From Liolophura sinensis (Eukaryota; Mollusca; Polyplacophora; Chitonida; Chitonidae), in the NCBI RefSeq assembly GCF_032854445.1, contig NC_088295.1, forward strand, positions 60,493,249-60,557,248: a stretch of 64,000 nt of DNA. Reading direction: 5' to 3'. Each line of letters starts with the position of its first letter. Position 1 is the first letter of the stretch. The notes under the pieces are model-generated. The model did not search any database, was not told the DNA's origin, and saw only the letters and a list, made by a program, of their open reading frames with translations. Shown here in pieces: positions 2,887-42,999 of the stretch. Position numbers and translations under genes: made by a program.

Positions 2887-2926
2887 ATGAACGATTTGAT
2901 AATACTAATCATCTGCGCTTGGACAG
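2887..2926 (+). CDS. Receptor gene 1, exon 1: signal peptide
   Basis: Forty-base exon starting with ATG, coding MNDLIILIICAWT plus one base, then a GTAAGT donor. A short hydrophobic leader ending in small residues is a typical secretion signal. The start is chosen because the gene 2 leader exon has exactly the same length (40 bases) and phase. Confidence 0.8.
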
Positions 2927-5900
2927 GTAAGTCCTATCTTCAGCAAATTCATGTATGTATTTTGCAGCATGTAAGCAGATTTTCATGTCGGAACCTCAGT
3001 GGCTCAGTGGTTAGAGCACTACCGCAAAACAACTATACTCACAACTATATTGTCATGTGTAATATACACCAGAAGTAATGATTGTCTATGGCAAAACACT
3101 TGTGTTTCAGGATTATCTGTGTCCAGTGTGTCCAGCGTGTCCATTACGCCATCAGGGGATGCTATCGCCGGACGCGCACTTACTCTAGAGTGTAGGGTAA
3201 ACAGAACTCAGAGTAACAATGACACGGTCTATTGGAGGTATGGTTCTAGGAAAGACTCTTACATATACAGAAGCAATGAATGTACATCGTCCATATCAGT
3301 ATCACATGGTGATTCATACATCTTTCGATATCCTGGAGTTGGAATAACAGGGGGATGCCAACACGTCAACGGCGAAGAGGTCTACGCACTGACGATCAAT
3401 CCTGTAACAGAACGCATGACAAAGTCTTGGTTTTGGGAAATGCGCATGGACAAACTGACGTGTCAGTTTGGCTCAGAAAGGGACGTCATTAATCTAAACG
3501 TCAAAGGTAAAGATATCACCATAACTGAGATCAAACTTGATGTGTACATGTACTCCTATTGGTATCAAATGTTTTATATTAGGTTTAAATCAATTAACCA
3601 TGCATGTGGTAAAATTGCTCATTTTGTTTACCACAATAACATTTTTCTTGAGATCCCTGACTGAAGATCATTTATTTGCACTAGCGCAGTGCTTGTTGAA
3701 GATAATTCAGAGCTGTCAGAGAGTGTAAATGGCATGCCGCTACATAGGATATTATGTAAAACATAGATAAAGAAAACTTGCCGGTAAAAGCAAAATTTTC
3801 GGGACAACTAATTTCCATACACAAAACACAATTTTACACACAAAACTCGATATTTCACTTTCTCGACTTCTCAGCGATATACCAGATGTCACCATGCAGG
3901 GTCTAGGAGGTGGAGAGAAGCAATAAAGTGAATTAAGTGCAATACAGGTATTAACAGTGTACATGAAAGGTGAAATGAAACGATGGAAAGGTAAAACGCG
4001 CTGACCTGGTAAAGGCCACGTCCTTGGGTGGACGGATAACCGGCCACACACTCCCTCCGGTTCCGCGGTCCCCGGCCTGGCCACGGCCCCTCGGCGTAAC
4101 GGTCCTTGAGTATCGCGGCCCAGCTGGTCGTAGCCTACTAAGGTCGTTAGACAGTCGCGGCCCTCAGGCGGTCTCCGGTCGCCTCGCAGCCCTCGCGACC
4201 ACGTACCGGTCTCGTCGCGGTCTCCGGCCCTCTCGGTCGGTCCAATATTCCAGAGAAAATGCTGCTCAGCGCCACCGCCAACTTACACAAGATTGACAGG
4301 CCGCTGGCTCCAAGCCCTTCATTTGCCCCGACTTGCGGTTCAGTCCGTGGCTATATGCGGCCTTCTCGTTAAGTTCTACGGCGCGTGCGGCCTCGGCTCC
4401 ATACCTCAATGAAACAGTCAAAATAGCAGCCACGCCGTTGGCGCTATGTTCACGGCCATAGAGGTGCTTCTCACACATACCCAGTGGTATGACGCAAACG
4501 TCCTACCGGCCCCAAGCGTGGGATGGCCGCTACCAGCCGACTGCGTCTTGGTTCGCTTGGGCTCGTCTGGCCCGGCATGGCAGCACAGTCTAGTGAAGCA
4601 AACTTACCTGACATAGTGGAGTTAAGCAAACTTACCTCACATAGTGGGCTCCTCTTGCCGTCAGGTTCGATGAACAAGCTAAAAATAGATACTCTGGCTC
4701 AGCCAGTGTATAGCGTATAGTAGATGCACGTCGATTTCGTAACACTGCTTTTGTTTCAGTCTCCATCTTGTAGCGCGTGTACGTGTACCTTTATAAACCA
4801 GGATTCTGATGCCGGACTAAGCATAAACGAGGCCTAGTCCTTTTGCTTTGTAAATGTTCATGTAAATGTTTAATAAATGTGATGACAACGCAGCGCTTTG
4901 AGTAGTTCTAGACCACTGGGGGCTGTTTCTCTAAGAGGTCGTAACGTTAGGCCGACTTTATCACCATGACGATGCATACTGATGGCATACGTCGCCTTTA
5001 ATTGCGACCGTCGTAACTTTACGACCGCCTTGAGGTCAGCCCTCTGATTTGTAATAAACTGCGATTTAAATCACTTCATTTTTGTTGACGTAATTCCGCA
5101 TATTCCAAGGAATCAATGTGGGGATACTACTATAGAATCCTTGAAAATTAGAATGTTCCCAATGTAGCACACAATGAAACTTGTCTCAACACAATTACTT
5201 AAATACACAGGTAACCATGTATCGGGATGATGACCAGAATGCAGTGTAGCGAAAATAGACTCATATAATTCAAGCAGTTTACATGTATCATGAAATAATG
5301 TTTAAAGACTAGTTCATCTGGCTTGCGGCCGATACACTGTTTACAAACACACATATATATTTATTTATTTGTTTATTTGCATTCCACTCCCGCCAGCAAA
5401 ATGGTGGGAGAAAACTTCTGAAAACTACGACTAGCCGCAGATTGCGGTAGTCCTTCCCACGTACAAGTTTACACTTCATGACTGATGTATATTGCTACTG
5501 AAATATTCCAACTTCTAATGTAGGTTTATGTAATAAATTAAATTTAACGGTAAGTGAAACCATTTTTTTCAGTAATGGTAGCACGGGTCAACATGACAAA
5601 GCTCCCAGATGGAATGTTAGCCGGCCTCCCAAGCAACTTTACCTGTGTGACCTCGGCCAGTAAACCTACGGCCTGTGTGAGGTGGTACATACGGAGTTCC
5701 GGAAACATTCGAGAGCTAGACCCGCCTCAACGGAGTGACTGCAACCAGAACTCCCGCTGGCCAAAGATCACACACCGGACACTGAACTTTACCCCTAGCG
5801 CCGAAGAAAACGGAGCTGAGCTGTACTGTAACGCCTCTAACGATGTCACGGATCCTCCTGTACGATCACTAGTCTACACACTCAATGTACAGTGTGAGTA

Positions 5901-8900
5901 GGGCCTCTGACATTCTACGATTGTAGATAAACATGAGCCTAAGATATTCTATGATTGTAGATACACAAGAGCCTAAGATATTCTATGATTGTAGATAAAC
6001 AATCATGGGCACATATAATAAGAGGCTACAGCAATTTGTTCATTTTAAGTATTAGGCTTGCTATGATCGGGAAGTGTCACAGGTACGTCAGAAAATGCAA
6101 TTTTATTTAAGTTTTAGACATTTTTATTGACATCTATTTTCTTTACTTGCACGTAATTTTTAGTAACCATTAGTCAGATGCCGATCTGCTTTAGCGGGAA
6201 CAACGTTTTCCCTCAACATACTCTTTGCTACTAAATCAGGGGTACCGGGTTTTTGATGGGGAGTTTGTAAACTCCCCCGCCGCACAGTGGGAGACTTTGT
6301 GGGGCCTCTGGGACAATAAGCGCTTGGATAGCCTTAATATTTGTTTTAATATTATTTTTCTTCTACCATTATGATATGTAAAGTTCATTAGTATCTTGCC
6401 TTATTTTGGTGATTTACCCAGGGCACTCAGCGTTAGCCTACCTCACATTCTGTTTCACCCTTTTCATTCGTGTACATCGTTACAACATTTGAGACACATT
6501 TGAAAGATTTGAGACACTTAAACGTCCATCTCTGAAATACCATCACGGATTATATTAGGGCACAATGGTTTGGGGGAGATCTAAAGCGTTTTAAATCATT
6601 TTATAACTTGTACTTGTAACTTGTTGATAAATCGTGCCACCTTTTCAATTATGTTTAAATTTTGAATTATAAATGGACTCTACCGTTCTATAAACTGACC
6701 AGATACCTTAGAAAGCAAAATTAGCATTTGAACATCTTGTTCGTCGTTGTTGATCCTTCCGTTTCTTGGCCGTTTTTTATTTTGTTGAGACTTATTTATC
6801 CGTGTGTATTTTTCATCAGATCCACCAAATATTACCTGTAACCAAATCAAAATGACTTCCTTTGAGGGCCAAAGGGTGCACATATCCTGTCATGTCATGG
6901 CCAACCCGGAAGCCAACATCGTGTGGGTAAAGGATAAACGACGGAGAGCTTCCAGAGCCGTCCGTGATCCTTCGAGAGATGACGTCACCATATCGACACT
7001 GGAGTTTGAAACAATTACGAAGATGTCTGCCGGAATGTATGTAATTGAGGCCAGGAACAGCGCTGGGTCTTCCAACACGGAAGTGGAAATTAGTGTGATA
7101 GGTATTTGTTTTGTTTTTCTTAGTCACCAATGAAAAAAACATGGTCATGTGTTTCAATTCACGGTTAATTTCGCTGCATCTGAATTATGCAGACAATGTA
7201 AGGTTTTAAGTTCCTATACTTTATTATGTGATGTAAAATACTAATCTTTGACCACACATTATCACTTCACAACACCTGCATACTTCTAATTTTAGAAGGC
7301 CAATATATACCGAAAAAGCTGATGATAACATCGTGCACCAATAACCAAGCTTCTCTTGTCTGGTCGTCTGGAATTGACGACTCTCTGGTGGAATACTACA
7401 AACTGGAATACAAAGGAACAGGGGAGGAGTGGACCGCAGAACTCATTAAAAACCCAGGCAGAATGGAGCTTGTGGTGACCAGTGTGAAAAATCTACAGTC
7501 CGGCGTGTTATACCAGTTCAGACTTCAGCCAAACTCGGACATTGCCTTATCCGAATATGCCGAGGCTGACTGCAAAACCGAAAGTGAGAATGCTCTTTGT
7601 TTTCTCAAGTAACCTGTTCTATTCTGTTTTACAAGATCAGTGTACTGACAGCGCATGATGAATATAAGTCGACGAAAGCTGATTTAAAATGAATAAATCC
7701 AGACTAAAACGCAAAACGCGCACGTCTTGTATTTTACGGTCTTAAAAGGAAAATGAAAAGGGGTTACAACTGCATCTATTTTAGGAATACCCGTAAGGCT
7801 GGTCGATGGGAGCAGTGGTAATCGTCTACTCGAGATCTTGATGGCGTGTCTTATCTGTTGTGATGATTAGGGTGTTTAACGATTCATATTCATACAGAGG
7901 TTACCCCTGTAGCCACATAACATGTTTTCTTTCTCTGCAGAACCGAACGACGCCTTACCTGAGGACGGCCTCGGTAAAGAAGGTATGTTTGCTGTGGGGT
8001 TTGTGAGTGGTGGTGCCTTGGTCGGCGTCATTGGTGTGGCCTTGGGCTGTTGGTTCCGCCGAAAAGAAGCATTAGGCATGCAGAACAAGGGTAAGTAAAA
8101 TTCTTTAGATCCGAATTAGATATTCGGTGTAGTGTAAAACATGCCTAACCTTCTAATTAGTTTACGTATGCTAAAATAACTTTGGTTTACTCTGGGGCTC
8201 ACTTACAAGAAGCCCTCGTAACGTTGAGAGCACCATGGCAACGTAATGCCTACAGTGTTGGTTGGCATGTTAGTTACGAGCTCAACTTTCAGGAGACTTC
8301 GTGCATTTGGGCCCGGGCTGTCCTCGATTCCTCGATCAGTAAACCTGACCGCCACAATATAAAAACGTTGTGAGTAAAAGTAAATAAATACATTCAAACA
8401 TAACTAATTACTCAAACAAGCCACAATCGTAAAACATACATAGATGCATAAGGAACTTGCCACGCCGTCTATCTTACTTTTGCTTTATCGGTTTCAGAGC
8501 AACATGTGTCCAAAAGACAAGATACGGAACACGCCATGAGGTATCTATGTAAATGGGACTTAAATATAAATGTTCTTGACTGTGCCACTTTTAAACAATA
8601 CCATTTTAAAGCACCTTAAATGGTAATGTTCACGAAGTTTCGAGTGGTTTAGGTACAAACCAAAATTAAAAGTCGTTTGACATGTGACTCGCTTTCCTAC
8701 AAACCCAGCTATGTCTTTTATGTGCCATTTGTGTGTCTGTTGTGTGACCATGGTGTGTCTAAATATGTTTGTGGTGTGTCTGCAGTGAGTTATTTGTGTT
8801 CGTGGTGGGTCTGTGATATGTTTTTTTTTTGTGCGTCTGTTGCATGCCAATGACGTGTCCATGGCGTATTCTTCACTTGTCTGTTCTGGTCCCATGATAT

Positions 8901-11900
8901 ATCCTCAGTGTGTGTTGTGTGTCTGTTGTGTGCCTGTGATGTGTGCATGGTGTGCCCTTGACGTGCCCATGATGTGCTCATGATGTGCCCTTGACGTGTC
9001 TGTCGTGTGTTTTTGGTATGTCTGTAGTAATTCTTTTGTTTGTCCTCGATGTGTCTGTGATATGCCATTTGTGCATTTTTGTGTGGCCACGGTATTTCTG
9101 TGGTATGTCCATAGTGTATCCTTTGTCTGGTCAGGATGTGTCCTTAGTGCGTCTTGGATATGTCTGTGGTATGTCCATAGTGTATCCTTTGTCTGGTCAG
9201 GATGTGTCCTTAGTGCGTCTTGGATATGTCTGTGGTATGTCCATAGTGTATCCTTTGTCTGCTCACGTTTTGTCCGTGGTGTGTCTGGAATTGTCTGTGG
9301 CATGTCTGTGATGTATTCTTTGTCTGTCCTCGGTGTTTCCGTGGTGTGTTTTGGATATGTCTGTGGTATGTCCGAGATGTATCCTTTGTCTGTCCTCGGT
9401 GTGCCCAGGGTGTGTCTTGGATATGTCTGTGGTATGTTTGTGATGTATCCTTTGTCTGCCCTCGGTGTTTTCATGGTGTGTCTTGGATATGTCTGTGGTA
9501 TGTCTTTGATGGATCCTTTGTCTGTCCTCGGTGTGATCGTGGTGTGTCTTGGATATGTCGGTTGTGTCTTTATAATGCTGCCATGTGTCAGTGAAGTGAA
9601 CATAATGTGTCTTTCTTATGTCTCTGCATATCTGTTATGTGTCTATTGTGCGCCAGTTATGTGTCCATACACGGTGTGTCCTCGGTGTGTCCGTGGGATG
9701 TCCGTGGTGAGTCGGTTGTATACTAGTATGTATATCTGTAAGATGTCTGTTGTGTGTCCTTTGTGTGTCTGTGGACCGGTTGTGGTGTATCTGTGGTGTG
9801 GGTTTGGACAGGCAGTAGTTTGGCTGGAGTTTTCATGCTGTGTGTCAGTGGACTGCTTGTAGAACACTCAGAGGATGTCCTAATTATTTCTGTACAGTTT
9901 CTACAGACTACAGCGTTATAAGCCCTATAAGCCCTATCATGAATGCTATAAGCCCTATCATGAATGCTAGGTTATTTTCTGTGAAAAGATAGAAGCCTGT
10001 CACAAGTGTCATATTGCAGAGCTTCAGTCAAGTCATTAAGGCCTTTCGCATGCTTGGTGTATTATGTGTAAACGACAGACGTATAGTATATCTGAATTCA
10101 GTTTTGTTTCATTAAACGTGCTTGCATTGACAGGGCCATTGAAAAAACGACAGGTCCTGAAGATACCACATCAGGTAAACCAAATTATTCTTCCATTTGC
10201 ATTAAAATAAAAGACAGCACATAATTCGGGCGAGGAGTGCAAAAACATTTAAACTGCCGATTTCATTTTATTCTGGCTGTATTGGGTATAGATTGTTAAT
10301 ATTGGTCCTGTTTTAAGATTTAATACCAAAACAAACTCTTCAATTTTGTACTTAGCCCAAAAATAATTGCGTCACAGTATATTAATAGTTTAACTAAATC
10401 TACTAATGTGATACTTAGACATTGAACAAATGCATTGGCTGCTTGATTTGGCTTAGATCGCATATATAAAATACATGTATGACTTAATACCAGTATTAGC
10501 TAATACACTTTCGAACAACAGGGCGTGGGAGTTCTTGGAAGGCCATGCGTTATGCCATATTAAAGTCACCAAAAACACGACGTTGCCTCACTCGTATGTT
10601 TCGTTCTCTATCCTGTATGAAATAAAAGCTAACAGAAACCGTGTGACGTCACAGCTGAACAAGCCAATTCTCCGGTTATATAAAAGTCTGCCGCTAATTG
10701 GCTAGGATTAACATCATGGAGACATCTTTGATTTTCTCAATGTGCGCGGTTTGTTTAGGCATCCCGATAAGCCATTCTTTTCTAAATACTTCCAAATGGG
10801 GCCACCATAAAGCTGCAAAGCAATGTGTTTCAAGCTCCCCACCTCTCAAAGAAATAAAACATTTCTTATTTATCAAGAATTTTTTTCATTATATCAGTGT
10901 TCTTTTCTCGTTTGGTGTAGGTGCCTACGAAGACATGGACATTACACGCAATGCAGGTATGATTCTTTAGTGTGTAAAGTCAGAATTTAAAATTTCCTGG
11001 GGCCTCTGTGACCTGGTGACTAGCGTATCAGCGCGGCAGATATACACATACAAAGGACTCATCACAGACATATCACGGACACACCGAGGACACACTATTT
11101 ACACGCAATGACATATAACTGGCGCACAACAGACACATAAGGGGTACGCATAGACACAAGAAAAAACTCACTGTGTGCACATCACTGACACACAACAAAC
11201 ACACTATGTGCACATCACTGACACACAACAAACACACTATGTGCACATCACTGACACACAACAAACACACTATGTGCACATCACTGACACACAGGTTGCT
11301 ATGAGTTAATGAGTCCAGCATGTACTGGCTTCCTCTCCGGTCTTATGTGGGACGGTTTGCCAGCAACATGCAGTTAATGCAAGCTTAATGGAAGTTTACC
11401 ATTCGTTAATTATAATTGCAGGATCACAGTTCGAGACTGTTTCAAGAAAAATGTCGCCATCAAGTGCCTCTGGCAACAGGGATTACGAGAACACTAGTGT
11501 GCTGTGAGAAGAGTTCTGAACAGTGTGCTCAGAAGATTCGGGTTGGCCGCATGAGTTTAATTCTAACCTTACCTGATTCTCTTTTAGGAGAATATATATT
11601 CCACCAGTAATTTTGTCAATTTTGTAAGTCTATGTCTAAAATAGGTATGCACGTGTGATTAGGAAACCATGGAACATTGGAGACTGCAACCATAAATAGC
11701 TACTTGTGTGTAACTACAGCTCAACCACCTTTTCGATCATTGCATAAAGACAACTGTCTATTAACAACATAAACGACTTTGTTTCGCTACATGTACATAA
11801 GCAAACTTACCTCACATAGTGGAGTGAAGCAAACTTACCTCACATAGTGGACCGGTATGGCAACCAGAATGCAGTGCAGCGAAGACAGACTCATATAATT

Positions 11901-14900
11901 CAAGCAGTTTACATGTACCATGAAATAATGTTTAAAGACTAGTTCATCTGGCTTGCGGCCGATACACTGTTTACAAGCACACATATATATTTATTTATTT
12001 GTTTATTTGCATTCCACTCCCGCCAGGAAAATGGTGGGAGAAAACTTCTGAAAACTACGACTAGCCGCAGATTGCGGTAGTCCTTCCCACGTACAAGTTT
12101 ACACTTCATGACTGATGTATATTGCTACTGAAATATTCCAACTTCTAATGTAGGTTTATGTAATAAATTAAATTTAACGGTAACGGACTTACACGAAACC
12201 CTCGTAACGTTGAGAGCACCATGGCAACGTAATGCCTACAGTGCTGGTTGCCATGTTAGTTACGAGCTCAACTTTCAGGAGACTTCGTGCATTTGGGCCC
12301 GGGCTGTCCTCGATTCCTCGATCAGTAAACCTGACCGCCACAATATAAAAACGTTGTGAGTAAAAGTAAATAAATACATTTAAACATAACTAAATACTCA
12401 AACAAGCCACAATCGTAAAACATACATAGATACATAAGGAACTTGCCACGCCCTCTATCTTACTTTTGCTTTATCGGTTTCAGAGCAGCATGTGCCCAAA
12501 AGACAAGATACGGAACACGCCATGAGGTATCTATGTAAATGGGACTTAAATATAAACGTTCTTGACTGTGCCACTTTTAAACAATACCATTTTAAAGCAC
12601 CTTAAATGGTAATGTTCACGAAGTTTCGAGTGGTTTAGGTACAAACCAAAATTAAAAGTCGTTTTACATGTGACTCGCTTTCCTACAAACCCAGCTATGT
12701 CTTTGATGTGCCATTTGTATGTCTGTTGTGTGACCATGGTGTGTCTAAATATGTTTGTGGTGTGTCTGCAGTGAGTTATTTGTGTTCGTGGTGGGTCTGT
12801 GATATGTTTTTTTTTGTGCGTCTGTTGCATGCTATTGACGTGTCCATGGCGTATTCTTCACTTGTCTGTTCTGGTCCCATGATATATCCTCAGTGTGTGT
12901 TGTGTGTCTGTTGTGTGCCTGTGATGTGTGCATGGTGTGCCCTTGACGTGCCCATGATGTGCTCATGATGTGCCCTTGACGTGTCTGTCGTGTGTTTTTG
13001 GTATGTCTGTAGTAATTCTTTTGTTTGTCCTCGATGTGTCTGTGATATGCCATTTTGTGCATTTTTGTGTGGCCACGGTATTTCTGTGGTATGTCTGTGG
13101 TATGTCCATAGTGTATCCTTTGTCTGGTCAGGATGTGTCCTTAGTGCGTCTTGGATATGTCTGTGGTATGTCCATAGTGTATCCTTTGTCTGCTCACGTT
13201 TTGTCCGTGGTGTGTCTGGAATTGTCTGTGGCATGTCTGTGATGTATTCTTTGTCTGTCCTCGGTGTTTCCGTGGTGTGTTTTGGATATGTCTGTGGTAT
13301 GTCCGAGATGTATCCTTTGTCTGTCCTCGGTGTGCCCAGGGTGTGTCTTGGATATGTCTGTGGCATGTCTGTGATATATTCTTTTTCTGTCCTCGGTGTT
13401 TCCGTGGTGCGTTTTGGATATGTCTGTGGTATGTCCGAGATGTATCCTTTGTCTGTCCTCGGTGTGCCCAGGGTGTGTCTTGGATATGTCTGTGGTATGT
13501 TTGTGATGTATCCTTTGTCTGTCCTCGGTGTTTTCATGGTGTGTCTTGGATATGTCTGTGGTATGTCTTTGATGGATCCTTTGTCTGTCCTCGGTGTGAT
13601 CGTGGTGTGTCTTGGATTTGTCGGTTGTGTCTTTATAATGCTGCCATGTGTCAGTGAAGTGAACATAATGTGTCTTTCTTATGTCTCTGCATATCTGTTA
13701 TGTGTCTATTGTGCGCCAGTTATGTGTCCATACACGGTGTGTCCTCGGTGTGTCCGTGGGATGTCCGTGGTGAGTCGGTTGTATACTAGTATGTATATCT
13801 GTAAGATGTCTGTTGTGTGTCCTTTGTGTGTCTGTGGACAGGTTGTGGTGTATCTGTGGTGTGGGTTTGGACAGGCAGTAGTTTGGCTGGAGTTTTCATG
13901 CTGTGTGTCAGTGGACTGCTTGTAGAACACTCAGAGGATGTCCTAATTATTTCTGTACAGTTTCTACAGACTACAGCGTTATAAGCCCTATAAGCCCTAT
14001 CATGAATGCTATAAGCCCTATCATGAATGCTAGGTTATTTTCTGTGAAAAGATAGAAGCCTGTCACAGGTGTCATATTGCAGAGCTTCAGTCAAGTCATT
14101 AAGGCCTTTCGCATGCTTGGTGTATTATGTGTAAACGACAGACGTATAGTATATCTGAATTTAGTTTTGTTTCATTAATCGTGCTTGCATTGACAGGGCC
14201 ATTGAAAAAACGACAGGTCCTGAAGATCCCACATCAGGTAAACCAAATTATTCTTCCATTTGCATTAAAATAAAAGACAGCACATAATTCGGGCGATGAG
14301 TGCAAAAACATTTAAACGGCCGATTTCATTTTATTCTGGCTGTATTGGGTATAGATTGTTAATATTGGTCCTGTTTTAAGATTTAATACCAAAACAAACT
14401 CTTCAATTTTGTACTTAGCCCAGAAATTATTGCGTCACAGTATATTAATAGTTTAACTAAACCTACTAATGTAATACTTAGACATTGAACAAATGCATTG
14501 GCTGCTGGATTTGGCTTAGATCGCATATATAAAATACATGTATGACTTAATACCAGTATTAACTAATACACTTTCGAACAACAGGGCGTGGGAATTCTTG
14601 GAAGGCCATGCGTTATGCCATATTAAAGGCACCAAAAACACGACGTTGCCTCACTCGTATGTTTCGTTCTCTATCCTGTATGAAATAAAGGCTAACAGAA
14701 ACCGTGTGACGTCACAGCTGAACAAGCGAATTCTCCGGTTATATAAAAGTCTGCCGCTAATTGGCTAAGATTAACATCATGGAGACATCTTTGATTTTCT
14801 CAATGTGCGCGGTTTGTTTAGGCATCCCGATAAGCCATTCTTTTCTAAATACTTTCAAATGGGGCCACCATAAAGCTGCAAAGCAATGTGTTTTAAGCCC

Positions 14901-16609
14901 CCCCCCCCCCAAAAAAAAGAAATAAAACATTTCTTCTTTATCAAGAATTTTTTTTTCATTATATCAGTGTTCTTTTCTCGTTTGGTGTAGGTGCCTACGA
15001 AGACCTGGACATTACACGCAATGCAGGTATGATTCTTTAGTATGTAAAGTCAGAATTTAAAACTTCCTGGGGCCTCTGTGACCTGGTGACTGGCGTATCA
15101 GCGCGGCAGATATACACATACAAAGGACTCATCACAGACATATCACGGACACACCGAGGACACACTGTTTACACGCAATGACATATAACTGGCGCACAGC
15201 AGACACATAACAGGTACGCATAGACACAAGAAAAAACTCCCTGTGTGCACAACACTGACACACAACAAACACATTATGTGCACATCACTGACACACAGGT
15301 TGCTATGAGTTTATGAGTCCAGCATGCACTGGCTTCCTCTCCGGTCTTATGTGGGACGGTTTGCCAGCAACATGCAGTTAATGCAAGTTTAATGGAAGTT
15401 TACCATTCGTTAATTATAATTGCAGGATCACAGTACGAGACTCTTTCAAGAAAAACGTCACCATCAAGGGCCTCCGGCAACAGGGATTACGAGAACACTA
15501 GTGCGCTGTGAGAAGAGTTCTGAACAATGTGCTGAGAAGACTCGGGTTGGCCGCATGAGTTTAATTCTAACCTTACCTAATTTTTTTTCAGGAGAATATA
15601 TATTCCTCCAGTAATTTTGTCAATGTTGTAAGTCTATGTCTAGAATAGGTATGCACGTGTGATTAGGAAACCATGGAACATTGGAGACTGCAACCACAAA
15701 TAGCTACTTGTGTGTAACTACAGCTCAACCACCTTTTCGATCAGTGCATAAAGACAACTGTCTATTAACAACATAAACGGCTTTGTTTCGCTACATGTAC
15801 ATAGAGATTATTACATACCCGCTTTGATATCAGTCTTTTTGTCAGGTCTCGACTGCGGTATCAGCCCGAGGCTGTAATTCATTTATCACATATCGTCATG
15901 GATTCGCAACTCGATCTATTCTGACATCGGTTAGCCATGTTTCCACTTCAGCTTCCACAAAAAATCTCTCCCATACCATGGGATATGTGATATGTACATC
16001 TGGGAATTGTTCGGCGTTAAATTTGAAGAAAAATACCGATAACAAAGCTAAGACAATAAACTTACTAAGAATAAACTATCGACAATACAAATTTATCAGG
16101 AAACAAATGCTGCCAACCAGCTTGTAAATAAAATATGGCTTTATGTGTAGTTATTTAATTAAACCATGTAAATATATTTCAAAATGAAGTGTTGTTTGCC
16201 ATGGTTGACAAATCGGAGATAAAGATATCGAACCGAACATTAAGGAATGAACTTTTAAAACTCTGATATAAACATATAGATATTAAACGTGATTATTATG
16301 TTTCTGTCGTCGGATACTACTTTATTTTGTCTTCTTTTAACGTCTGAGTCTACATGCATCTCAATCTTACTGGATATTTTATCTGTCGAGTGTTTAGCTT
16401 TATTCGTTGCTTTAAGTTTAAGTTTTGCTTTTAGCTTAAATTTTGCTTTTAGTTTAAGTTTTGTATGAAATGTTTACCTATAAACAATAATTATATGTGG
16501 CCTTGTGTGCAGTTTTTAAACCCACCAATCAAGCTACATAGATCGCATCTAGGAATGTTACGAAGCCTTAATATGTTTTTGCTTATTCTTCTCAATATGA
16601 CTGAATAAA
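2887..16609 (+). CDS. Receptor gene 1: Ig-Ig-Ig-FN3 one-pass receptor with duplicated tail exons
   Basis: Type I membrane receptor of the Ig superfamily. Exons read from splice signals: 2887-2926, 3111-3506, 5573-5893, 6820-7101, 7296-7583, 7941-8090, then tail set A (8498-8540, 10134-10174, 10921-10956, 11422-11507) or tail set B (12484-12526, 14197-14237, 14991-15026, 15426-15511). Either route gives 560 residues: signal peptide, Ig1 14-145, Ig2 146-252, Ig3 253-346, FN3 347-442, membrane segment about 458-481, tail 482-560. All ectodomain exons are phase 1-1. Poly(A) signals AATAAA occur only after tail B (16055, 16070, 16604). The exact ligand and function are unknown; the tail motifs suggest tyrosine-kinase signalling. 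Transcript evidence is lacking, so the choice between tails is inferred. Confidence 0.85.
3111..3506 (+). CDS. Receptor gene 1, exon 2: V-like Ig domain 1
   Basis: Phase 1-1 exon after TTTCAG, ending before GTAAAG. It codes an Ig-like domain with B-strand cysteine (LTLEC), a W in VYWRY, and an F-strand cysteine (KLTC). Two more cysteines (NEC and GGC) probably form a second bridge; the block GGCQHVNGEEVY is shared almost unchanged with gene 2. The domain begins with a serine/valine repeat (SVSSVSSVS) next to the signal peptide. Confidence 0.8.
3507..5572 (+). other. Intron 2 of receptor gene 1
   Basis: Contains a GC- and CpG-rich block (about 4000-4580) unlike the AT-rich surroundings, a 24-26 bp direct repeat with AGCAAACTTACCTCACATAG (4598-4650), and an inverse diverged SINE piece (about 5380-5480). 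The part 5230-5546 was copied to 11865-12182. No coding exon recognised here. Confidence 0.6.
5573..5893 (+). CDS. Receptor gene 1, exon 3: Ig domain 2 (C2-set/CD80-like type)
   Basis: Phase 1-1 exon. Shows FTCVTSASKP, the core tryptophan in VRWYIRSSG, and ENGAELYCNASN with the F-strand cysteine, a pattern typical of the CD80-like C2-set domains of nephrin/nectin-type adhesion proteins. Ends TLNVQ before a GTGAGT donor. The closest relatives here are the gene 2 exons at 26024 and 29114 and the pseudo-exon at 40211. Confidence 0.85.
5894..6819 (+). other. Intron 3 of receptor gene 1, with short tandem repeat
   Basis: Directly after the exon, about 5905-6005 holds three copies of a 34-base unit containing GATTGTAGATA. 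The rest is AT-rich without recognisable features. Confidence 0.6.
6820..7101 (+). CDS. Receptor gene 1, exon 4: Ig domain 3 (I-set type)
   Basis: Phase 1-1 exon after TTTTTCATCAG. Codes a domain starting YPPNITC, with VHISCHV (B strand), NIVWVKD (core W) and AGMYVIEARNSAGSS, the usual I-set F-G turn except that the F-strand cysteine position holds isoleucine or glutamate (YVIEA rather than YxCxA). This atypical domain may therefore lack the canonical disulphide. The pseudogene copy is at 41085-41366. Confidence 0.8.
7296..7583 (+). CDS. Receptor gene 1, exon 5: fibronectin type III domain
   Basis: Phase 1-1 exon of 96 codons. FN3-like features: TNNQASLVWSSGID (B strand with W), YYKLEYKGTGEEW (C strand), VKNLQSGVLYQFRLQPNS (the L-x-P/G-x-x-Y-x-F-x-V pattern). 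Membrane-proximal FN3 after Ig domains is standard in adhesion receptors. Donor is GTGAGA. Confidence 0.8.
7941..8090 (+). CDS. Receptor gene 1, exon 6: membrane segment
   Basis: Phase 1-1 exon of 50 codons after TTTCTCTGCAG. A short acidic linker (PEDGLGKEG) is followed by about 24 hydrophobic and glycine-rich residues (MFAVGFVSGG to GCWF) with no charge, then the stop-transfer RRKEA. The topology is therefore outside-in with the C-terminus in the cytoplasm. No basic or acidic residue inside the membrane that would suggest pairing with an adaptor. Confidence 0.85.
8498..11507 (+). CDS. Receptor gene 1, tail set A (altered signalling motif)
   Basis: Four exons 8498-8540 (phase 1 to 2), 10134-10174 (2 to 1), 10921-10956 (1 to 1) and 11422-11507 ending in TGA. 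Motifs: YEDM (YxxM, the class bound by PI3K SH2 domains), then SQFETV where tail B has SQYETL, and DYENTSVL at the C-terminus. YEN fits GRB2-type YxN; SVL fits a class I PDZ ligand. All splice sites are intact and the frame is open, so it is usable. No AATAAA is seen within 290 bases after the stop. Confidence 0.75.
8700..9860. repeat. 66-bp minisatellite, copy 1
   Basis: GT-rich array; best units between 9110 and 9560 have a 66-base period containing TCTTGGATATGTCTGTGG and ATCCTTTGTCTG. The period is a multiple of three, which keeps both strands open for 230-290 codons; the predicted proteins are only repeat translations rich in cysteine/valine (plus) or threonine/histidine (minus). It lies in the intron between tail exons 8498-8540 and 10134-10174. 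Confidence 0.9.
10998..11385 (+). repeat. SINE split by a 33-bp tandem repeat
   Basis: The SINE head (GGGGCCTCTGTGACCTGG) is at 10998-11050 and the middle (TCCAGCATGTACTGGCTTCC to GCCAGCAACATGCAG) at 11309-11372. Between them lies an ACACAC-rich stretch and about four 33-base units (11170-11293) containing TATGTGCACATCACTGACAC. The copy at 15069-15390 has only about two units. Confidence 0.75.
11800..12185 (+). repeat. Copied fragment of intron 2 between the two tail segments
   Basis: Begins with two copies of AGCAAACTTACCTCACATAG as at 4598-4650, then matches 5230-5546 nearly base for base up to AAATTTAACGGTAA. The internal part 4651-5214 is missing. It could be a mobile element with an internal deletion or a fill-in fragment from the duplication event. 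Confidence 0.8.
12484..15511 (+). CDS. Receptor gene 1, tail set B (ITAM-like motif)
   Basis: Second copy of the four tail exons: 12484-12526, 14197-14237, 14991-15026, 15426-15511, same lengths and phases as set A. It codes YEDLDITRNAGSQYETL: two YxxL units with nine residues between, close to the ITAM pattern (usually 6-8, up to 12 accepted). SQYETL alone also fits the ITIM pattern (S-x-Y-x-x-L). The end reads DYENTSAL then TGA. The two YxxL halves lie on different exons. To be used, exon 6 must splice past all of set A, or set A exons must be skipped in part. Confidence 0.75.
12690..13925. repeat. 66-bp minisatellite, copy 2
   Basis: Same array within the second tail segment. It differs in unit number: a 132-base block (two units, about 13350-13480) has been gained, while one upstream unit has been lost relative to copy 1. 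Open frames on both strands are artefacts of the period. Confidence 0.9.
15069..15390 (+). repeat. SINE split by a 33-bp tandem repeat, second copy
   Basis: Counterpart of 10998-11385 in the second tail segment. The 33-base units are fewer (15239-15297), so the array has expanded or contracted since the segment duplicated. Confidence 0.75.
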
Positions 16610-17924: not shown

Positions 17925-20900
17925 TACAGGTGAGAGGGTCACTAACTGAACGTAGGCAGACCAAGTGTAATACGGGACTGTTGGCTGGCGGGGGTGGGGG
18001 GTGGGGTGGGGTGGGGGGTGTCTTGAGTGCTATGTTCATGGTTCAATCCGCACAGTACAGGTGAGCGGTTGACTAACTGAATGTAGGCAGACCAAGTGTA
18101 ATACAGGGCTGTTGGGGGAGGAACTTGAGTGCTATGTTCATGGTTTAATCTGCATAGTACAGGTGAGCAGTTCACTAAATGAACGTAGGCAGACCAGGTG
18201 TATTACATGGCCAAGAAGGCATACTCTTGGATGTTATATTCCTCGTGTAATCTGTACAGTACCAGCAAGCGATTTACTAACTGAACGTAGGCAGACCAGG
18301 TGTATTACAGGGGTAAGAATTCATGCTCTTGGATGTGATGTTCATGGTGAAATCTGTTCAGCGGGGCCTCTGTGGCTCAGTTGGTTAACGTGCTAGTGCA
18401 GCTTATTGACCCACAACCTTCTCAGCCATGCGGTCGCTGTGAGTTCAAGTCCAGCACATACTGACTTCCTCTCAGGCCGTACGTGGGAAGGTCTTGCAGC
18501 AGCCTGCGGATGGTGGTGGGTTTCCCCTGGGCTTTTCTCGGATGCCTCCCACCATAATGCTGGCCGCCGTCGTATAAGTGAAGTATTGTTGAAATATTCC
18601 TTGACTGGTGTAAAACACCAATCGAAGAATAAATGTAATCTATACAGAACAGGTGAGTGATTTACTAACCGAACGTAGGCTGACCAGGCGTAATACAGGG
18701 CTATGAGAGCATGATCTTGGATGTTATGTTCATGGTGTAATCTGTACAGTACAGGGGAGCGGTTGACAAACTGAGCATTGGCAGATCAGGTGTAATACAG
18801 AGCTATGAGGGTATGCTCTTGGATGTGATGTTCATGGTGTGATCTGTACTGTACAGGTGAGCGGTTTACTAACTGAACATTGGCAGACCAGGTGTAATAC
18901 AGGGCTGTGAGGGTATGCTCTTGCATGTTATGTTGATGGTGTAATCTGTACAGTACAGGTGAGCGATTTACTAACTGAACATTGGCAGACCAGGTGTAAT
19001 ACAGGGCTATGAGGGCATGCTCTTGGATGTTACGTTCATGGTGTAATCTGTGCAGTACAGGTAAACTTTTCATTGTGTGGATGTAGACAGACCAGGTGTA
19101 ATACAGGGCCATGAGGACATGGTCTTGCATGTTATGTTGATGGTGTAATCTGTACTGTACAGGTGATCGAGTCTCTAACTGCACCAGGTGTAATACAGGG
19201 CTGTGAGGACATGGTCTTACATGTTATGTTTATGGTATAATCTGTAAAGTACAGGTGTGTGGTTCACTAACTGAACGTATGCAGAGCAGGTGTAATATAG
19301 GGCTGTTGGTGGTGCTGGTGGTGGAGGGGGGGGGGGTCTTGAGTGCTATGTTCATGGTGTAATGTGTACAGTACGGGTGAGCGGTTCACTATCAGAACGT
19401 TGACAGACCAGGTGTATTACTTGGCCAAGAAGGCATGTTCTTGGATGTTATGTTTATGTTGTAATCTGTACAGTACAGGTGAGTGGTTGACTAACTGAAC
19501 GTGGGCAAACCAGGTGTAATACAGGGCTATGAGTGTGTGGTCCTGAATATTATGTCCATGGTTTATTCCGCACAGTACAGGTGAGCGGTTCACTAACTGA
19601 ACGTAGGCAGACCATGTGTAATACAGGGCTTTGAGGGCATGATCTTGGTGTTATGTTAATGGTGTAATCTGTACAGTACAGGTGAACTGAACGTAGACAG
19701 ACCAGGTGTAATACAGGGCTATGACGGCATGCTCTTGGATGTTATGTTCATGGTGTAATCTGTACAGTACAGGTGAACGGATCACTAACTGAAGGTAGGC
19801 AGACCAGGTGTAATACAGGGCTATCAGTGTGTGGTTTTGAGTGTTAGTCCATGGTTTATTCCGCATAGTACAGGTGAGCGGTTCACTAAATGAATGTATG
19901 CAGACCATGTGTAATAATGGGTTATGAGGGAGTGCTCTTGTATGTTATGTTCATGGTGTAATCTGTACAGTACAGGTGAGCGGTTCACTAACTGAACGTA
20001 GGCTAACCATGTGTAATACAGGGCTATGAGGGCATGCTCTTTGATGTTATGTTTATGGTGTAATCTGTCCAGTACAGGCGAACTGGTTGAGTGGATGTAG
20101 ACAGACCAGGGGTAATACAGGGTTGCCAGGACATGATCTTACATGTTATGTTAATGGTATAATCTGTATAGTACAGGTGGACGAAGTCAGACGAAGTGAA
20201 CAGAGGGCTGTAAGTGCGTGGGCATGAATGCTATGGTAATGGTGTAATCTGTACTGTACAGGTGAACGAGTCACTAACTGGACGAAGTCAGACGAAGTGA
20301 ACAGAGGGCTGTAAGGGCGTGGGCATGAATGCTATGGTAATGGTGTAATCTGTACTGTACAGGTGAACGAGTCACTAACTGGACGAAGTCAGACGAAGTG
20401 AACAGAGGGCTGTAAGGGCGTGGGCATGGATGCTATGCTAATGGTGTAATCTGTATTGTACAGGTGAACGAGTCACTAACTGGACGAAGTCAGACGAAGT
20501 GAACAGAGGGCTGTAAGTGCGTGGGCATGGATGCGATGCTAATGGTGTAATCTGTACTGTACAGGTGAACGAGTCACTAACTGGACGAAGTCAGACGAAG
20601 TGAACAGAGGGCTGTAAGGGCGTGGGCATGAATGCTATGGTAATGGTGCAATCTGTACTGTACAGGTGAACGAGTCACTAACTGGACGAAGTCAGACGAA
20701 GTGAACAGAGGGCTGTAAGTGCGTGGGCATGAATGCTATGGTAATGGTGTAATCTGTACTGTACAGGTGAACGAGTCACTAACTGGACGAAGTCAGACGA
20801 AGTGAACAGAGGGCTGTAAGGGCGTGGGCATGAATGCTATGGTAATGGTGTAATCTGTACTGTACAGGTGAACGAGTCACTAACTGGACGAAGTCAGACG

Positions 20901-21109
20901 AAGTGAACAGAGGGCTGTAAGGGCGTGGGCATGGAGGCTATGCTAATGGTGTAATCTGTATTGTACAGGTGAACGAGTCACTAACTGGACGAAGTCAGAC
21001 GAAGTGAACAGAGGGCTGTAAGTGCGTGGGCATGGATGCGATGCTAATGGTGTAATCTGTACTCTACAGGTGAACGAGTCACTAACTGGACATAGACGGA
21101 CCAGGTGTA
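17925..21109. repeat. 102-bp satellite array upstream of receptor gene 2
   Basis: About 28 units with a 102-base period (for example GTACAGGTGA at 18851 and 18953, and 20255 and 20357). Two subfamilies: a diverged one (17925-20160, AACTGAACGTAGGCAGACCA) and a nearly uniform one (20160-21090, ACTGGACGAAGTCAGACGAA). A SINE sits inside at 18363-18634. The minus strand is open over long parts (34-residue repeats with LIALYYTWSA) because the period is a multiple of three. The last unit ends at the ATG of receptor gene 2. Confidence 0.95.
18363..18634 (+). mobile_element. Full-length tRNA-derived SINE
   Basis: Starts GGGGCCTCTGTGGCTCAGTT, body with CCATAATGCTGGCCGCCGTC and tail ACACCAATCGAAGAATAAAT. 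Flanked by imperfect 10-base repeats (AATCTGTTCA at 18351, AATCTATACA at 18637) that fit a target-site duplication in the satellite unit. Confidence 0.85.
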
Positions 21110-21149
21110 ATGGAAAGCTTTTATACTTTTCTCGTCTGCCTTTGCCAAG
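21110..21149 (+). CDS. Receptor gene 2, exon 1: signal peptide
   Basis: ATG followed by ESFYTFLVCLCQ and one base, then GTAAGT. Forty bases long in phase 1, exactly as gene 1 exon 1. The A of the ATG belongs to the last satellite unit (GTGTAATGG against the unit GTGTAATAC). Confidence 0.8.
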
Positions 21150-24100
21150 GTAAGTATAGGTCTAATGTATACCTACATCAAGCGACATGTTCAGTTAAAG
21201 GAAAAAGGCTAGAAAAAAGGTAAAAGATTTACAATGACAGTAGCAATCGTTGTAAAATTATGCATTTCATAAACGGCCTATATATTACTTCAAGGCGCGT
21301 TTCAACGGTTTCCTTTATTGTAGATTTTACGGCAGAAAGAAGTGCTTTAATTTGGAATTGTTAAGTATTTTTAGTTTCATGGCTATGCACTGAAAAGTCC
21401 TGTAAGTTTCGTGTACATACTTCGCCTTGTGGCCCGTAGTGGGGACCATTGTGTCTTGTGTAGTGATTTCAGTCAACGTCACAAATTTTCATAACCAAAA
21501 CTAACGTGATATTCCATTCTTAAATTTCTTCCGTCTTTCTGCATCGTATGTGTTGTGAACTTTCTGTTCATCGTGTTCAATAAAGTCGCCATGTTAGATA
21601 TATAAATAGGTACAATCAAATTCCAGATGAGATACATATATTCACTGGTGACGAGTGAACCTCACTCGACTTGGATCTTGATTAATTCAGCGTGAAAACA
21701 GAATGGTCGGGTAATCACACTTCACAGCAGTCAGTATCGAATGTATGCCCCATTAGCATAACGAAGAGCGTGAACTGTGATATTCCATTCTTAAATTCCT
21801 TCCGTCTTTCTGCATCATTTATGTTTTAAATTTTCTGTTCATCGTGTTCAATAAAATCGCCATGTTGGACATATAAATAGGTACAATCAAATTCCAGATG
21901 AGATACATATATTCACGGGTGAATATAAATGATAACGTAGTAAGGCACACGACTTGGATCCTGATTAATTCTTGCGCATATAACATGACAGGAGTATGAC
22001 ATTGGGCACAAAGTATACTCAACAAAAATATAAAGGCCCGAAGAGATTTGATATTGTTTTCTCTCAGTAATAAATAATGTGTTCACTCAACAATTAAAGT
22101 AGGTATTCATTATCAATTGTGGCTTCAGTTTTCACCAAAATTTCATATTTTAGGGCAATAATTCAGGAGCTACGACAGCGTGAAAACAGAGTGGTCGGTA
22201 ATCACAGTTCACAGCAGTCACTATCGAATGTGCCCACCATTAGCATAACGAAGAACGTGAACTGTGATTGTCGACGCGATTCACACTGCCATTATTTAGG
22301 AAAACATGATCAAATTTATCATGTATAGTTTCTCCAGGTTTATCTCCACCATCTAGTGATTATTTTGGGAAACATTATCAGTATGCATGTTTAGACAAAC
22401 ATTGTGCAAATATAAATCTATAGCTCACTAAAATATAGGGCCAACTGTATTGTAGTTGAAGGGACATTACTCGTTTTTCGCTGTAGTATTCTTGTATGTA
22501 TGGTTAAATTTGCTAACCTGGCGTGCACCTCGCGCCTTTACTTAGGCTACTTATATAAAATCAATGTAATTTTGTCATGAAAAGCTTCAGAATGTTTTTA
22601 ATTCATGGCGCAATGCTGTTTAATTGGTACATGTTAAATTCACATACATATAATACTTATTTCATCCAAATAATCCAAATTTAATAACAATAATTAGGGT
22701 AATAATCATTGCATTATCAAAGCATCAAAAATAAGAATCAGTTATGCTGACATGTTAGGAGAGCACCATTGAACCCAAATCTAGGGTACATGTGTAACTT
22801 TTTTGCATAATGCAAAATGCATGCATGGTTTCTTGTATATACATGTACATTTACACGTGTTTTACATAATGATCGCTCTTTAACACTGTCTAGAAACCAG
22901 TAAGAATAAATAATTTTGTACATGTTCGTTGTTTCCATTTTAGTAGTATCCGTGTCCAGTCTGTCAATCACAACACCAGGAGATGTCTTAGCCGGTCGTC
23001 CGTTTACCCTGGAGTGTAAGATAACCAGATCAGCGGGTGACAGGAATAGAACGGCCTGGTATAAGAACAACTCCGTAATATACCTATCCCGTGATTGTAA
23101 CACGTCAATACCAGTATTATCAGCCGGGTTATCAGGGGGATGCCAACACGTCAACGGTGAAGAAGTTTACACAGTGACAATACAGAACGTCACAGAAGAC
23201 ACGGGCCGGGTTACATGGATATGTCTGTACAAAGGACAGAACATCAACGTTACCCTGGATGTTAAAGGTGATTTGTGAGGAGTCAGCTTAATTATAGAGG
23301 GACACATAGCTTAGCACAGTATGTTTTTCACAATGGCAATTTTTTCCGACCGGTAACAGTTATTCTAGGTCAATGCAACATGAATAACTGATATCCTCCA
23401 TCTATTGTGAGGTGAATAATGTCGCCTGAGACGTTCAAAGTATTCTTACAACGTGTTCAACATTTAATCGCTTTTCAAATCAAGACAGAATTCAAATGTG
23501 TTCCATGTTTGAGCCATATATTTCATGTTTGAGACGTGTGCTCCATGTTTAAGACATGTGCTCCATGTTTGAGACATGTGCTCCATGTTTAAGACATTTA
23601 AAATTTAAAAACGTGAAGTGCGTTATGCCGCACACCTACATGAATATGTCTTATTACATACATCGCACACTTTAATGTGTATCGTCTTTTTAATACTTCG
23701 CACACTTACATAACTATCATCTTATGACATACATCCAGCTTGTCTGTTGATACACTTTTGTTATTCATACATGTATATAGTTTACGTACACGGGTATGCA
23801 CCATAATAGTCTACCTTACATATACAAGCCACACCCGTTACACCTACATGTCGCTGTGTACATCAGAAAATCCCCTTGATAACCATTTGCTTAAAAAGGA
23901 ACATTATACAGACTTGTGTTTGTTTAAAGCGGACATTTCCGTCGTTTAAAATTATTTTCATCAAAGAAAAAGTAGCTCTTCCATTTAACCAAACTATACA
24001 TTTTTGTCAAAATGTTTCTGAAAATAATTGAAATAAAAATCGTTGGTCTTTATGTTATTAGGCAAACTATTGTTTCTAAGACAAAGATTTTTTAAAAAAA

Positions 24101-27100
24101 TGTAATGCCCGATTAGGGGCTCCTTAGTCTACAGTTAAAGATGCAAATATTTAAGCCTGTTAAAACCTTGTTCAGTCTGACGGACCATATAAGCACAAAC
24201 CTTTATTAAGTAACATTTATTGGTCTCGATCTCCGCCTTTATTTTGTGACATTCTGCATGTCGTCAAATGTGTTTTACAGGGGTTGTTGTGGTGTCTTGA
24301 GTGAGTTCCAGGACATTCAGATGTTAACCAGAGTGGACTGGCTGACAGCTATGCCAAGTAGTCGTTCTCGTCATATGTAATGTCCATGTACAGCTTTCTC
24401 ATGACAAGGCTAATAAGGATTACTTTATCTACAAATGGCAAGAGAAATGGAACAGATGTCAAATAAAGGGAAACTTCTGTTTCTTGTCCAGCCATCCGTA
24501 ATGATCTCCAACTTTAATCCACTGTCCAGGGAGACCGATGTTTTAATTTGTCACGTGATTTTACACCACTTTCCTGTAAACATGCATCGTGTCCGTTTAG
24601 GTCGCTACCCCAATAGAAACTGTCAGAATTGTCTATAGTCCAAGACACAATTCTTTATTTATTGCACTGCGCAAGTCCCACTATTGCTCGCAACAGGCTT
24701 TCCTGACTTGCAGCCTCTACCTGTATGTCAGCTCTCACTTACAGCAGGAAAAAGATATTTGAGGCGGTTGTCAGATTTGCCATGCAAAGAATTACATATG
24801 TTCTTTCTGAAGTGACTGGTGCATGCGATATACTAGAAATGGGTATCTGTTTTTTTGTATTTTGTCAAGTTTAATTCATTATTTATTTTAGGTTGATTCT
24901 GACGCCCAGATGTTGTGTGAATAGTGTAAAAATTTCCATGCACCAATAAATTCAAGAGACCGACCAACCAGCCAGTCAGTCGGATAGTACAGGGAGATTT
25001 TTTTTCCACAAATGATATTATAACCATTTTTTCCAGTGGAGGAGGGCTTAAAACTTAACAATAGTTTTAAAATAGCATTCACCGGATGTCGGCATGACAT
25101 GAACAGTTGTTATATAGAAACAACTACACATTTTCCCAAAAATTGAATGCTCACAAAATCAAGGAAAGTAATTTTGATAAGAACACTGACGAAAGTTGAA
25201 AACCAATAATGTTTCTGCCTCTTATGGAACACAGGGTGCTCAAAGGGGATAACTTAATACGCTATAGCCCTGCTGTTGATCTGTTGCGTTTTTTGTATGA
25301 TATAGAGTGCTTATAAAGGATTCGTGGAGTGTAGCAGGAAATGAAGTAATAAACGTTAATGACAAGTTGATTCTCCAGAATGACGAGGTTTTCGTTTCAT
25401 TTATGTTAAACATTTCTTATTATCGGTTGTAGAGGATTTGTTGATTATTGATGAAGCACGTATACTGGGTGTGGAAGTTAGATCACATATAAAGTGAAAA
25501 GTCTTTGCGTGTACTCTTGTTCAGAATTACGTTTTAAGCGAATAAGAATGTAGATAAAGGTTAAGGAAATAATTGTATTAATCGGTTTGATGCTTTTGTT
25601 TGCTTTCATTTTTCGAGTGAGGACTGCATACTTGAATTCAACCTATCGTCACGTTTTCTAGTGTTTTGAAACTTCAGGTACTGCAGGCATAACTGTCTCA
25701 CCGGAAGTATGCTCAAATGGTAATTTCAACCATGCATTTTTTTCCATCTTTGTTTTTCGCAAAAAAGCAGAGGCCGATAGGTTCATTGCAATTTGGCCCC
25801 AAGTAAAGTTGTGCTTTTTGAATCTGTGGATGGTATTTTCCTCTTTGTCTAGACGCCCACATCTTATTAAAGATATGTAGTTTTGTTCTAGAGAAATAAA
25901 AAGATGACAAACTTTGACTTAGTCCAAACTTTCTGAATTTGACAATTTGCCTCAGTAAATATTTTCCGATTGTCATCAGTCAATTCAATAATCAACAAAA
26001 TGTGTAATATTTCATCTTCTCAGTACCGGTGAATCGGGTGACCCTGACGAACACCTCAGATACAGTACTAGCTGGTAAACCCACCAACGTAACCTGTGTG
26101 ACCTCGGCCAGTAAGCCCCAGGCCTGCATAAGGGCGTACATACGGAGTTCCGGTAATGTCCGGGAGCTAGAACCGCGTGCCTGTAACCACGACTCCAGCT
26201 CGGTACAGGCCACAACACAACGTGTAATTTACACGCATTTTACATAATAAACACTCTTTTAACACTGTCTAGTAACCAGTAAGAATAAATCATTTTGTAC
26301 ATGTCCGTTGTTTCCATTTTAGTAGTATCCGTATCCAGTCTGTCAGTCACAACAATGGGAGATGTCATAGCCGGTCGTCCGTTTACTCTGGAGTGTAAGA
26401 TAACCAGACCGGCAGGTGACAGGAATATTATGTCCTGGTATTACAGCTATAATCAGAACATATCCCATATATACTCCACCCGTGTGTGTACACCGTCAAT
26501 ACCGGTATCATCAGAATCACCAGCAGGGTTATCAGGGGGATGTCAACACGTCAACGGTGAAGAGGTTTACACATTGACGATAGAGAACGTCACACAAGAC
26601 ACAGCCCAAGTCACATGGACATCTCAGTATAAAGGGCAGGACATCGACGTTACCCTGGATGTTAAAGGTGATTTGTGAGAAGCCAGTTTTATTATAGAGA
26701 AACACATAGCTTAACACAGTATGTTTTTCACAATGACATTTTCTTCCGACGGGTAGCTGTTATTCAAGGTCAATGCAACATGAATGACTGATCTCCTCCA
26801 TTTATTTTTATGAACATGGACTACATGTCATAAACATGGAGCACATGTCTCAAACATGGAGCACACATAGAACACGTTTGAAGCCTGTCTCGAAAGTGGA
26901 AGATTAAATGTTAAAGACATTGCAAGAAGACTTTGAACATCTCAGGTGATATTATTCATTTAAAATTTAGAAACATGTGAAGTGGGTCATGGTGCACACT
27001 TACATAACTATCGTTTTCATACATACATCAAGCATGTCTGTTGATGAATTTTTGGTGTTCATATATAGTTTACATACACGCGTATGCACCATAATAGCCT

Positions 27101-40097: not shown

Positions 40098-40210
40098 GGT
40101 GTTTTAAGCCGTACTCAAGAATATTTCACTTATACGACGGTAGCCAGCATTATGGTGGGAGAAACCGGGCAAAACCCGGGGGAAACCCACGGCCATCCGC
40201 AGGTAGGAAA
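40098..40210 (-). mobile_element. 5'-truncated SINE abutting a pseudo-exon
   Basis: Inverse SINE: GGTGTTTTAAGCCGTACTCA, TTATGGTGGGAGAAACCGGG, GGGGAAACCCACGGCCATCC. It takes the place of the acceptor site and start of the Ig2 exon of receptor pseudogene 3. Confidence 0.8.
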
Positions 40211-42760: not shown

Positions 42761-42999
42761 AAAATTCCTTTCATCCGAAGTTGTTATTGCGACTAGTGCA
42801 TAAATGGCCCAGTGCTGCCAGTGCTTTACATGTAATGACTATAAAATACCCTAAAAGCGCGACAGCCGTTTTGTAAGTCATGGTAGATGTACATGCGCAG
42901 AAACAGGTTTTTAGCTGGAATATGCTCTGAAGAGAATGTGAGCTGGCTATAAGCTGTAAAGAGTCTCTTACCTGAATGTTTTAAAGGAAATGTGAGCAG

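Follow-up and report, generated by a model that had tools for sequence, protein, structure and literature searches.

RESULTS

A receptor core followed by two sets of tail exons

We analyzed 64,000 nucleotides of Liolophura sinensis DNA (contig NC_088295.1, positions 60,493,249 to 60,557,248), and this whole stretch is called the window below. The assembly was published as Liolophura japonica; its report describes HiFi sequencing at 14x, a mean read length of 8,347 bases, purging of haplotigs and a heterozygosity of 1.24%, and lists RNA-seq of digestive gland, foot, gill, gonad and heart (PMC11068029). A correction gives the species as Liolophura sinensis (PMC12441733).

An exon model built on AG/GT splice sites and an open frame places a gene of the immunoglobulin superfamily (IgSF) in the window, with a six-exon core and then two sets of four tail exons, all on the + strand. 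The shared core (2887..8090) opens with exon 1 (2887-2926), which holds the start of the signal peptide. Exons 2 (3111-3506), 3 (5573-5893) and 4 (6820-7101) each encode an Ig-type domain, exon 5 (7296-7583) is FN3-like, and exon 6 (7941-8090) encodes the transmembrane segment and the first cytoplasmic residues. Pfam matches were above cut-off for the third Ig domain (Ig_3, 66.4 bits) and the second (C2-set_2, 27 bits, cut-off 21). They fell below it for the first (V-set, a weak 17.1 bits, cut-off 26) and for the exon 5 domain (fn3, 21.8 bits, cut-off 25). Among the best 60 of 130 solved chains matched to the core by sequence, titin and cell adhesion molecules came out on top.

Tail set A consists of exons 7A (8498-8540), 8A (10134-10174), 9A (10921-10956) and 10A (11422-11507). 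Tail set B consists of exons 7B (12484-12526), 8B (14197-14237), 9B (14991-15026) and 10B (15426-15511). Exons 10A and 10B each end the frame, and the core joined to either set gives one open frame of 560 residues with a stop at its end. A first-pass annotation of this DNA had proposed two tail sets with intact splice dinucleotides, equal phases and stops of their own, and the exon model bears this out.

Translation of the exons likewise confirmed the motifs that the annotation had assigned to each tail. The ITAM consensus is Yxx[L/I]-x(6-12)-Yxx[L/I]. Tail B conforms to it: exon 9B codes YEDL and exon 10B codes YETL, giving YEDL-DITRNAGSQ-YETL with a spacing of x9. Tail A departs from it, since exon 9A codes YEDM and exon 10A codes FETV, so that three of the four anchor residues are lost. 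YENT is encoded by both last exons. In an extended form of the consensus, each tyrosine is preceded by an acidic residue at position -3, where tail B carries S and G.

The remainder of the window holds other repeats and a relative of this gene. At 18020-21110, self-alignment revealed about 3 kb of tandem repeats with a unit of roughly 100 bases, many of them carrying, by eye, a CAG/GTGAG-like donor word; they stop just before the apparent first exon of a second family gene (ATG at about 21111). In this second gene (22946-42762), the Ig1 and Ig2 exons are repeated; a stop interrupts the third Ig exon (at about 41343), and the frames of the FN3 and transmembrane exons are broken. No tail exon matches were found for it within 22946-42762, and its downstream part looks decayed. 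Further tandem arrays lie at 35095-35782, 58616-58984 and 59788-60255 (self-alignment). Elsewhere in the genome, C8 has eight consecutive matches to the molluscan haemocyanin beta-sandwich model.

Tail B follows the family and tail A departs from it

A genome search with the core returned at least 90 exon matches, the window's own included, with 71 on C1; 87 of 199 candidates were scored. Searches with the tail exons added further places. From DNA downstream of FN3 exons or around tail-exon matches, exons 9 and 10 could be read for 16 sister genes. Three of 19 loci (L007, L018 and L019) were left out, having a transmembrane match and no tail exon in the stretch examined.

The first motif, YE[DE]L, and the YEN are present in 16/16 sister tails, as is the second leucine; the second tyrosine and the full ITAM-type pattern with x9 are each present in 15/16, all counts to be read with the sisters being partly recent copies of each other and not 16 independent witnesses. 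Tail B agrees with the family at all four anchors. Its own departure is an alanine before the last residue, where 15/16 sisters have valine. The anchor residues of tail A, namely M, F and V, each occur in 0/16 sisters, and hence tail A is derived. We conclude from this alignment that tail B represents the ancestral type, with A a derived, ITAM-broken copy. Gene conversion from a sister is not supported as the source of the anchor changes, because none of the 16 sisters has M, F or V at these positions.

The tail is also constrained within the family, judging from its codons. Sister tails and B gave a median dN/dS of 0.30 (range, 0.13-0.65; 67 of 78 pairs, which are not independent of one another). 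The pairs were formed among B and the 12 sisters (of 16) whose exon 10 is of equal length, and the 67 were those with usable pS; L009, L013, L015 and L020 were left out because their exon 10 differs in length. A second exon 10 was found in none of the 16 sisters in the stretches read, which are mostly shorter than the 8-kb double set.

One sister shows a further loss of the motif. In L022 (C1:58283600-58287300, exon 10 at 3035) cysteine replaces the second ITAM tyrosine (HCEEL). The sisters L003-L017 and L020-L025 form a dense IgSF cluster at C1:58.26-58.60 Mb, on both strands, with a conserved YExL-x9-YExL...YEN tail. Further family exon matches lie on C1 near 60.5-60.8 and 62.8 Mb and on C18.

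The second tail set as a probable remnant of a larger duplication

Self-alignment pairs a duplicated unit A (8201..11799) with a unit B (12187..15803) that is without exons 3-6, and the two can be aligned over their entire length. Outside the minisatellite, 52/1888 aligned intron bases differ (2.75%). The differences number 32/1160 in the minisatellite stretch, 13/288 in the 3'UTR and 11/206 in the exons; there are 10 gaps besides, two of them at the alignment ends.

The 387 bases between the units derive almost entirely from the gene's own intron 2. This spacer (11799..12183) is left over from a second intron 2 copy; its source is 4596..5553, of which about 4596-4651 and 5233-5553 were copied. 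A 24-base word that stands paired 28 bases apart at 4596/4624 does so again at 11799/11827; allowing up to 3 substitutions, no other occurrence was found in the window. After this pair, 11863-12183 equals 5233-5553 at 98.1% (6 differences in 321). Unit A ends at 11799, the very position at which the second intron-2 piece starts, and the copied stretch, 4596-11799, does not include exons 1 and 2. Spacer (6/321) and introns (52/1888) have diverged about equally, as expected from one event.

The first-pass annotation had described a tandem cassette duplication. Its two copies are real, and it overlooked the larger event, 4596-11799, and the origin of the spacer. A simple 3.6-kb duplication unit was accordingly set aside for a 4596-11799 event with later deletions, the spacer being intron 2. 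On this account, 4596-11799 (part of intron 2 through the 3'UTR) would have been duplicated head to tail within the gene. The second copy would then have lost about 4652-5232 and 5554-8197, the latter deletion taking exons 3-6, and a bare second tail set (B) without ectodomain exons of its own would have resulted. A head-to-tail duplication with two deletions is the simplest history for these alignments, in the order of events that we infer.

We also considered that the spacer might be a dispersed repeat. Among the 9 genome matches listed for the 5233-5553 block, long ones occur at two places alone, and the 7 others cover just 71-120 bases of its inner part; hence we rejected this idea. Two long copies of the exon 7 neighborhood are present in the assembly, and the 41 other matches listed are short repeat pieces. 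A dispersed repeat does lie at about 8195-8320, at the left edge of unit A/B (41 further matches listed, of 38-151 bases), so that the inferred deletion end, 8198, falls on a repeat edge.

Either tail is in frame with the transmembrane exon

Exon 6 ends in phase 1 and can be joined to 7A or to 7B. The gene thus has the layout of an alternative tail: two in-frame sets of tail exons behind one transmembrane exon. Comparing the splice flanks of the four exons (30 bases before and 20 after), we found 3 differences in total between A and B, one before exon 8, one after exon 9 and one after exon 10. Splice sites this similar give no exclusivity by themselves, and a choice would need poly(A) use, timing or distant elements. 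Splicing and polyadenylation would together make the choice, with a transcript either ending in exon 10A or skipping onward to the B exons.

In a hexamer scan, the first AATAAA after stop A lies at 12162 (+655), inside the intron-2 remnant, and the first after stop B lies at +544, beyond the duplicated unit. A cluster of AATAAA hexamers at 16055, 16070 and 16127 (16055..16132), outside the duplicated unit, is likely the gene's original polyadenylation region, a function read from the hexamers. Since the cluster is outside the unit, a hexamer that came from an intron would have to serve tail A. We did not accept a missing poly(A) signal as disproof of tail A use. The first AATAAA/ATTAAA lies 6 to 791 bases past the stop in the 12/16 sisters in which one was found in the stretch read, and both +655 and +544 fall within this range.

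Introns 7 and 9 of both sets contain complementary minisatellites (78.6% over 145 bases). They pair in inverted orientation, 9584-9721 with 11048-11192 and 13647-13784 with 15118-15262, with exons 8 and 9 between them. For the four intron 7-intron 9 pairings, strong duplexes are predicted: -177.5 to -180.1 kcal/mol, compared to about -60 for mononucleotide shuffles (30 each). Perhaps these inverted repeats act as a splicing switch? We did not adopt this idea: the joins that they would favor (7 to 10 and 9A to 8B) are out of frame.

Taking layout and motifs together, our tentative reading, somewhat short of an even bet, is that the locus is one chiton IgSF receptor gene with two alternative terminal-exon tail sets, which would place either an ITAM-type or an ITAM-disabled tail on a common ectodomain. 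A regulated switch between the tails would be a reasonable extension of this.

Is tail A kept or drifting?

The strongest competitor, possible and in our judgment rather doubtful, holds that tail A is relaxed, little used or dying. The gene would then work via B, with A skipped and its changes due to drift. Several comparisons fit this idea. The 11 exon differences between A and B comprise 8 nonsynonymous and 3 synonymous changes, and pN (0.051) is close to pS (0.065), for a pN/pS of about 0.78. Exons have not diverged less than introns; the direction is an exon excess, both for all four exons (Fisher P = 0.05) and for exon 10 alone, where 7/86 bases differ (Fisher P = 0.013). Hence, no purifying selection is visible on tail A. 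At least 8 residue differences arose in 4.3% of neutral simulations at the intron rate and in 17% at 3.75%; the number of residue changes in tail A is at or slightly above the neutral level. A premature stop or a stop loss occurred in 23% of the runs at the intron rate. Because about 77% of neutral runs keep the frame intact, the open frame of A is weak evidence, and we rejected it as proof of function. The AATAAA cluster past unit B, finally, has no counterpart after A.

Drift fares less well with where the changes fell. Three of the four anchors are among the 8 changed codons of 68 (P = 0.0042). In neutral simulation starting from B, the share of runs that lost at least 3 anchors was 0.05% at the intron rate, 0.16% at 3.75% divergence and 0.34% at 5%. 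This test was chosen after the motif difference had been noticed, with anchors defined by the family alignment and not by A. Hitting three of four anchors by drift alone is unlikely. In addition, A adjoins exon 6 and its splice sites are no worse than those of B, and so a steady skipping of A needs an explanation of its own.

The opposite arrangement, in which tail A alone is used and B is a relic of a copy stripped of its ectodomain exons and no longer spliced to, we consider improbable. B does lack exons 3-6 of its own behind a spacer of intron 2 sequence, and A is the first set met by the spliceosome, with near-identical sites. However, B has kept its splice sites and the family motif, all four anchors included, which is suggestive only and weak evidence at 2.75% divergence.

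Could mixed tails be the point, A and B exons combining to vary the number of tyrosine motifs? There are 22 in-frame exon paths from exon 6, for example, 7A-8A-9A-10B or 7A-8A-9A-7B-8B-9B-10B. An ITAM-type pair is present in 9 of them and in none of the 4 that end in 10A. However, compatible phases are an automatic result of the duplication and therefore no evidence of mixed-tail use; we regard this explanation as very unlikely.

Least probable of all is an assembly artefact, the second unit being the other haplotype wrongly kept in tandem: the copies are about 97% alike in a genome with the published heterozygosity given above (PMC11068029), but their introns have diverged 2.2 times as much, the spacer consists of intron 2 sequence with two deletions, unlike a simple haplotype join, no further long copy of either tested block is among the assembly matches listed, and the HiFi reads averaged over 8 kb, with haplotigs purged.

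Motif classes and candidate signaling partners

We return to the reading in which both tails are available to one ectodomain. Tail B would signal via a tandem-SH2 kinase of the Syk/Shark type. At C7:10.461 Mb, the genome contains an SH2 exon that matches SYK best among PDB entries, followed by ZAP-70. Tail A, with one YxxM plus YENT and no second YxxL, could not hold such a kinase by both SH2 domains. The ectodomain would thus stay the same on a receptor that is weakened, acts as a decoy or is wired differently.

YxxM is the motif of PI3K-binding tails such as DAP10 or CD28, and YxN is a Grb2-type site. YEDM in exon 9A has the YxxM form; by sequence pattern it fits the PI3K type, and the YENT of tail A fits the Grb2 type. 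A single match above cut-off to the p85 inter-SH2 model was present at C7:13.156 Mb (36.3 bits, cut-off 31.5, over 44/161 model positions), and an SH2 match lies about 2 kb before it. The same model also matched, below cut-off, in 1/14 control genomes.

These motifs allow a bolder version of the history, in which selection would have changed the anchors alone and so made a YxxM/YxN (PI3K/Grb2-type, co-stimulatory) tail out of the proximal ITAM (Syk-type) one. We think this version unlikely.

Other SH2 regions were met in the same genome. Those of L026 (C9) and L031 (C7) resemble SHP2 by eye, which suggests two such genes. By eye we also take SH2 exon L027 to resemble PLC-gamma and SH2 exon L030 to resemble CSK.

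DISCUSSION

Removal or exchange of a tyrosine-motif tail, by splicing or between paralogues, has precedents in the long and short tails of CEACAM1 and in its ITAM-bearing CEACAM relatives. These are vertebrate proteins, however, and are not known to use a duplicated four-exon tail set; CEACAM1 is ITIM-based.

Splice-chosen ITAM-bearing IgSF tails are already known from arthropod Dscam (PMC6851185). In the account given there, Penaeus monodon Dscam has mutually exclusive last exons, 44.1/44.2, with stops and with an ITAM-like element in another exon; the Penaeus paper also relates that Daphnia Dscam tails include or exclude an ITIM or ITAM (PMC6851185). As proposed here for the chiton gene, a single IgSF gene has cytoplasmic exons chosen by splicing. 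The first-pass annotation had suggested an undescribed way of diversifying receptor output. Part of this interpretation stands: the ITAM-type spacing of B is real and a rule of the family (15/16 sisters), and the layout permits either tail. With tail choice published for Penaeus and Daphnia Dscam (PMC6851185), "undescribed" was too strong.

The chiton gene nevertheless differs from Dscam in several respects. Dscam has 10 Ig and 6 FN3 domains (PMC6851185), whereas the chiton gene has 3 Ig-type exons and one FN3-like exon and so is not in Dscam order. The Dscam choice, as described in the Penaeus paper, concerns single exons; here, a whole four-exon set is doubled at about 97% identity. That paper's ITAM consensus is a single YXXL, and its isoforms were seen in RNA (PMC6851185), while the chiton tails are predicted here from genomic sequence.

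Two further systems share features with the chiton gene. Mouse NKG2D-short and NKG2D-long have one ectodomain, and splicing decides whether there is ITAM-Syk output besides the PI3K/Grb2-type output (PMC5924773). Those motifs sit on separate adaptors, DAP12 and DAP10 (PMC5924773), whereas in the chiton they would sit on the receptor itself. If the bolder, selection-driven version of tail A were true, one gene would supply activating and co-stimulatory forms, for which mouse NKG2D needs two adaptors. A molluscan parallel comes from the oyster, where CgIgIT2 and related IgSF receptors combine Ig domains and a transmembrane segment with an immunoreceptor tyrosine motif (PMC11999971). CgIgIT2 differs in its five Ig domains, and the review's passage on it describes no second tail (PMC11999971). 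That review calls CgIgIT2 ITAM-bearing, and the title that it cites says inhibitory receptor (PMC11999971).

Among the open-licence titles and abstract openings listed, none described this gene or a duplication of ITAM tail sets. The novelty seems to lie in the mode of origin, together with the loss of three of the four anchors by one tail of an ITAM-type family.

Should both tails be made, the locus would show a two-output receptor early in its making, at an intron divergence of 2.75%. The route to it would be clear: duplicate, delete the ectodomain, and change the motif. The chiton IgSF family, clustered on one chromosome and with its ITAM-type tail conserved, also bears on the age of ITAM-type signaling by Ig receptors.
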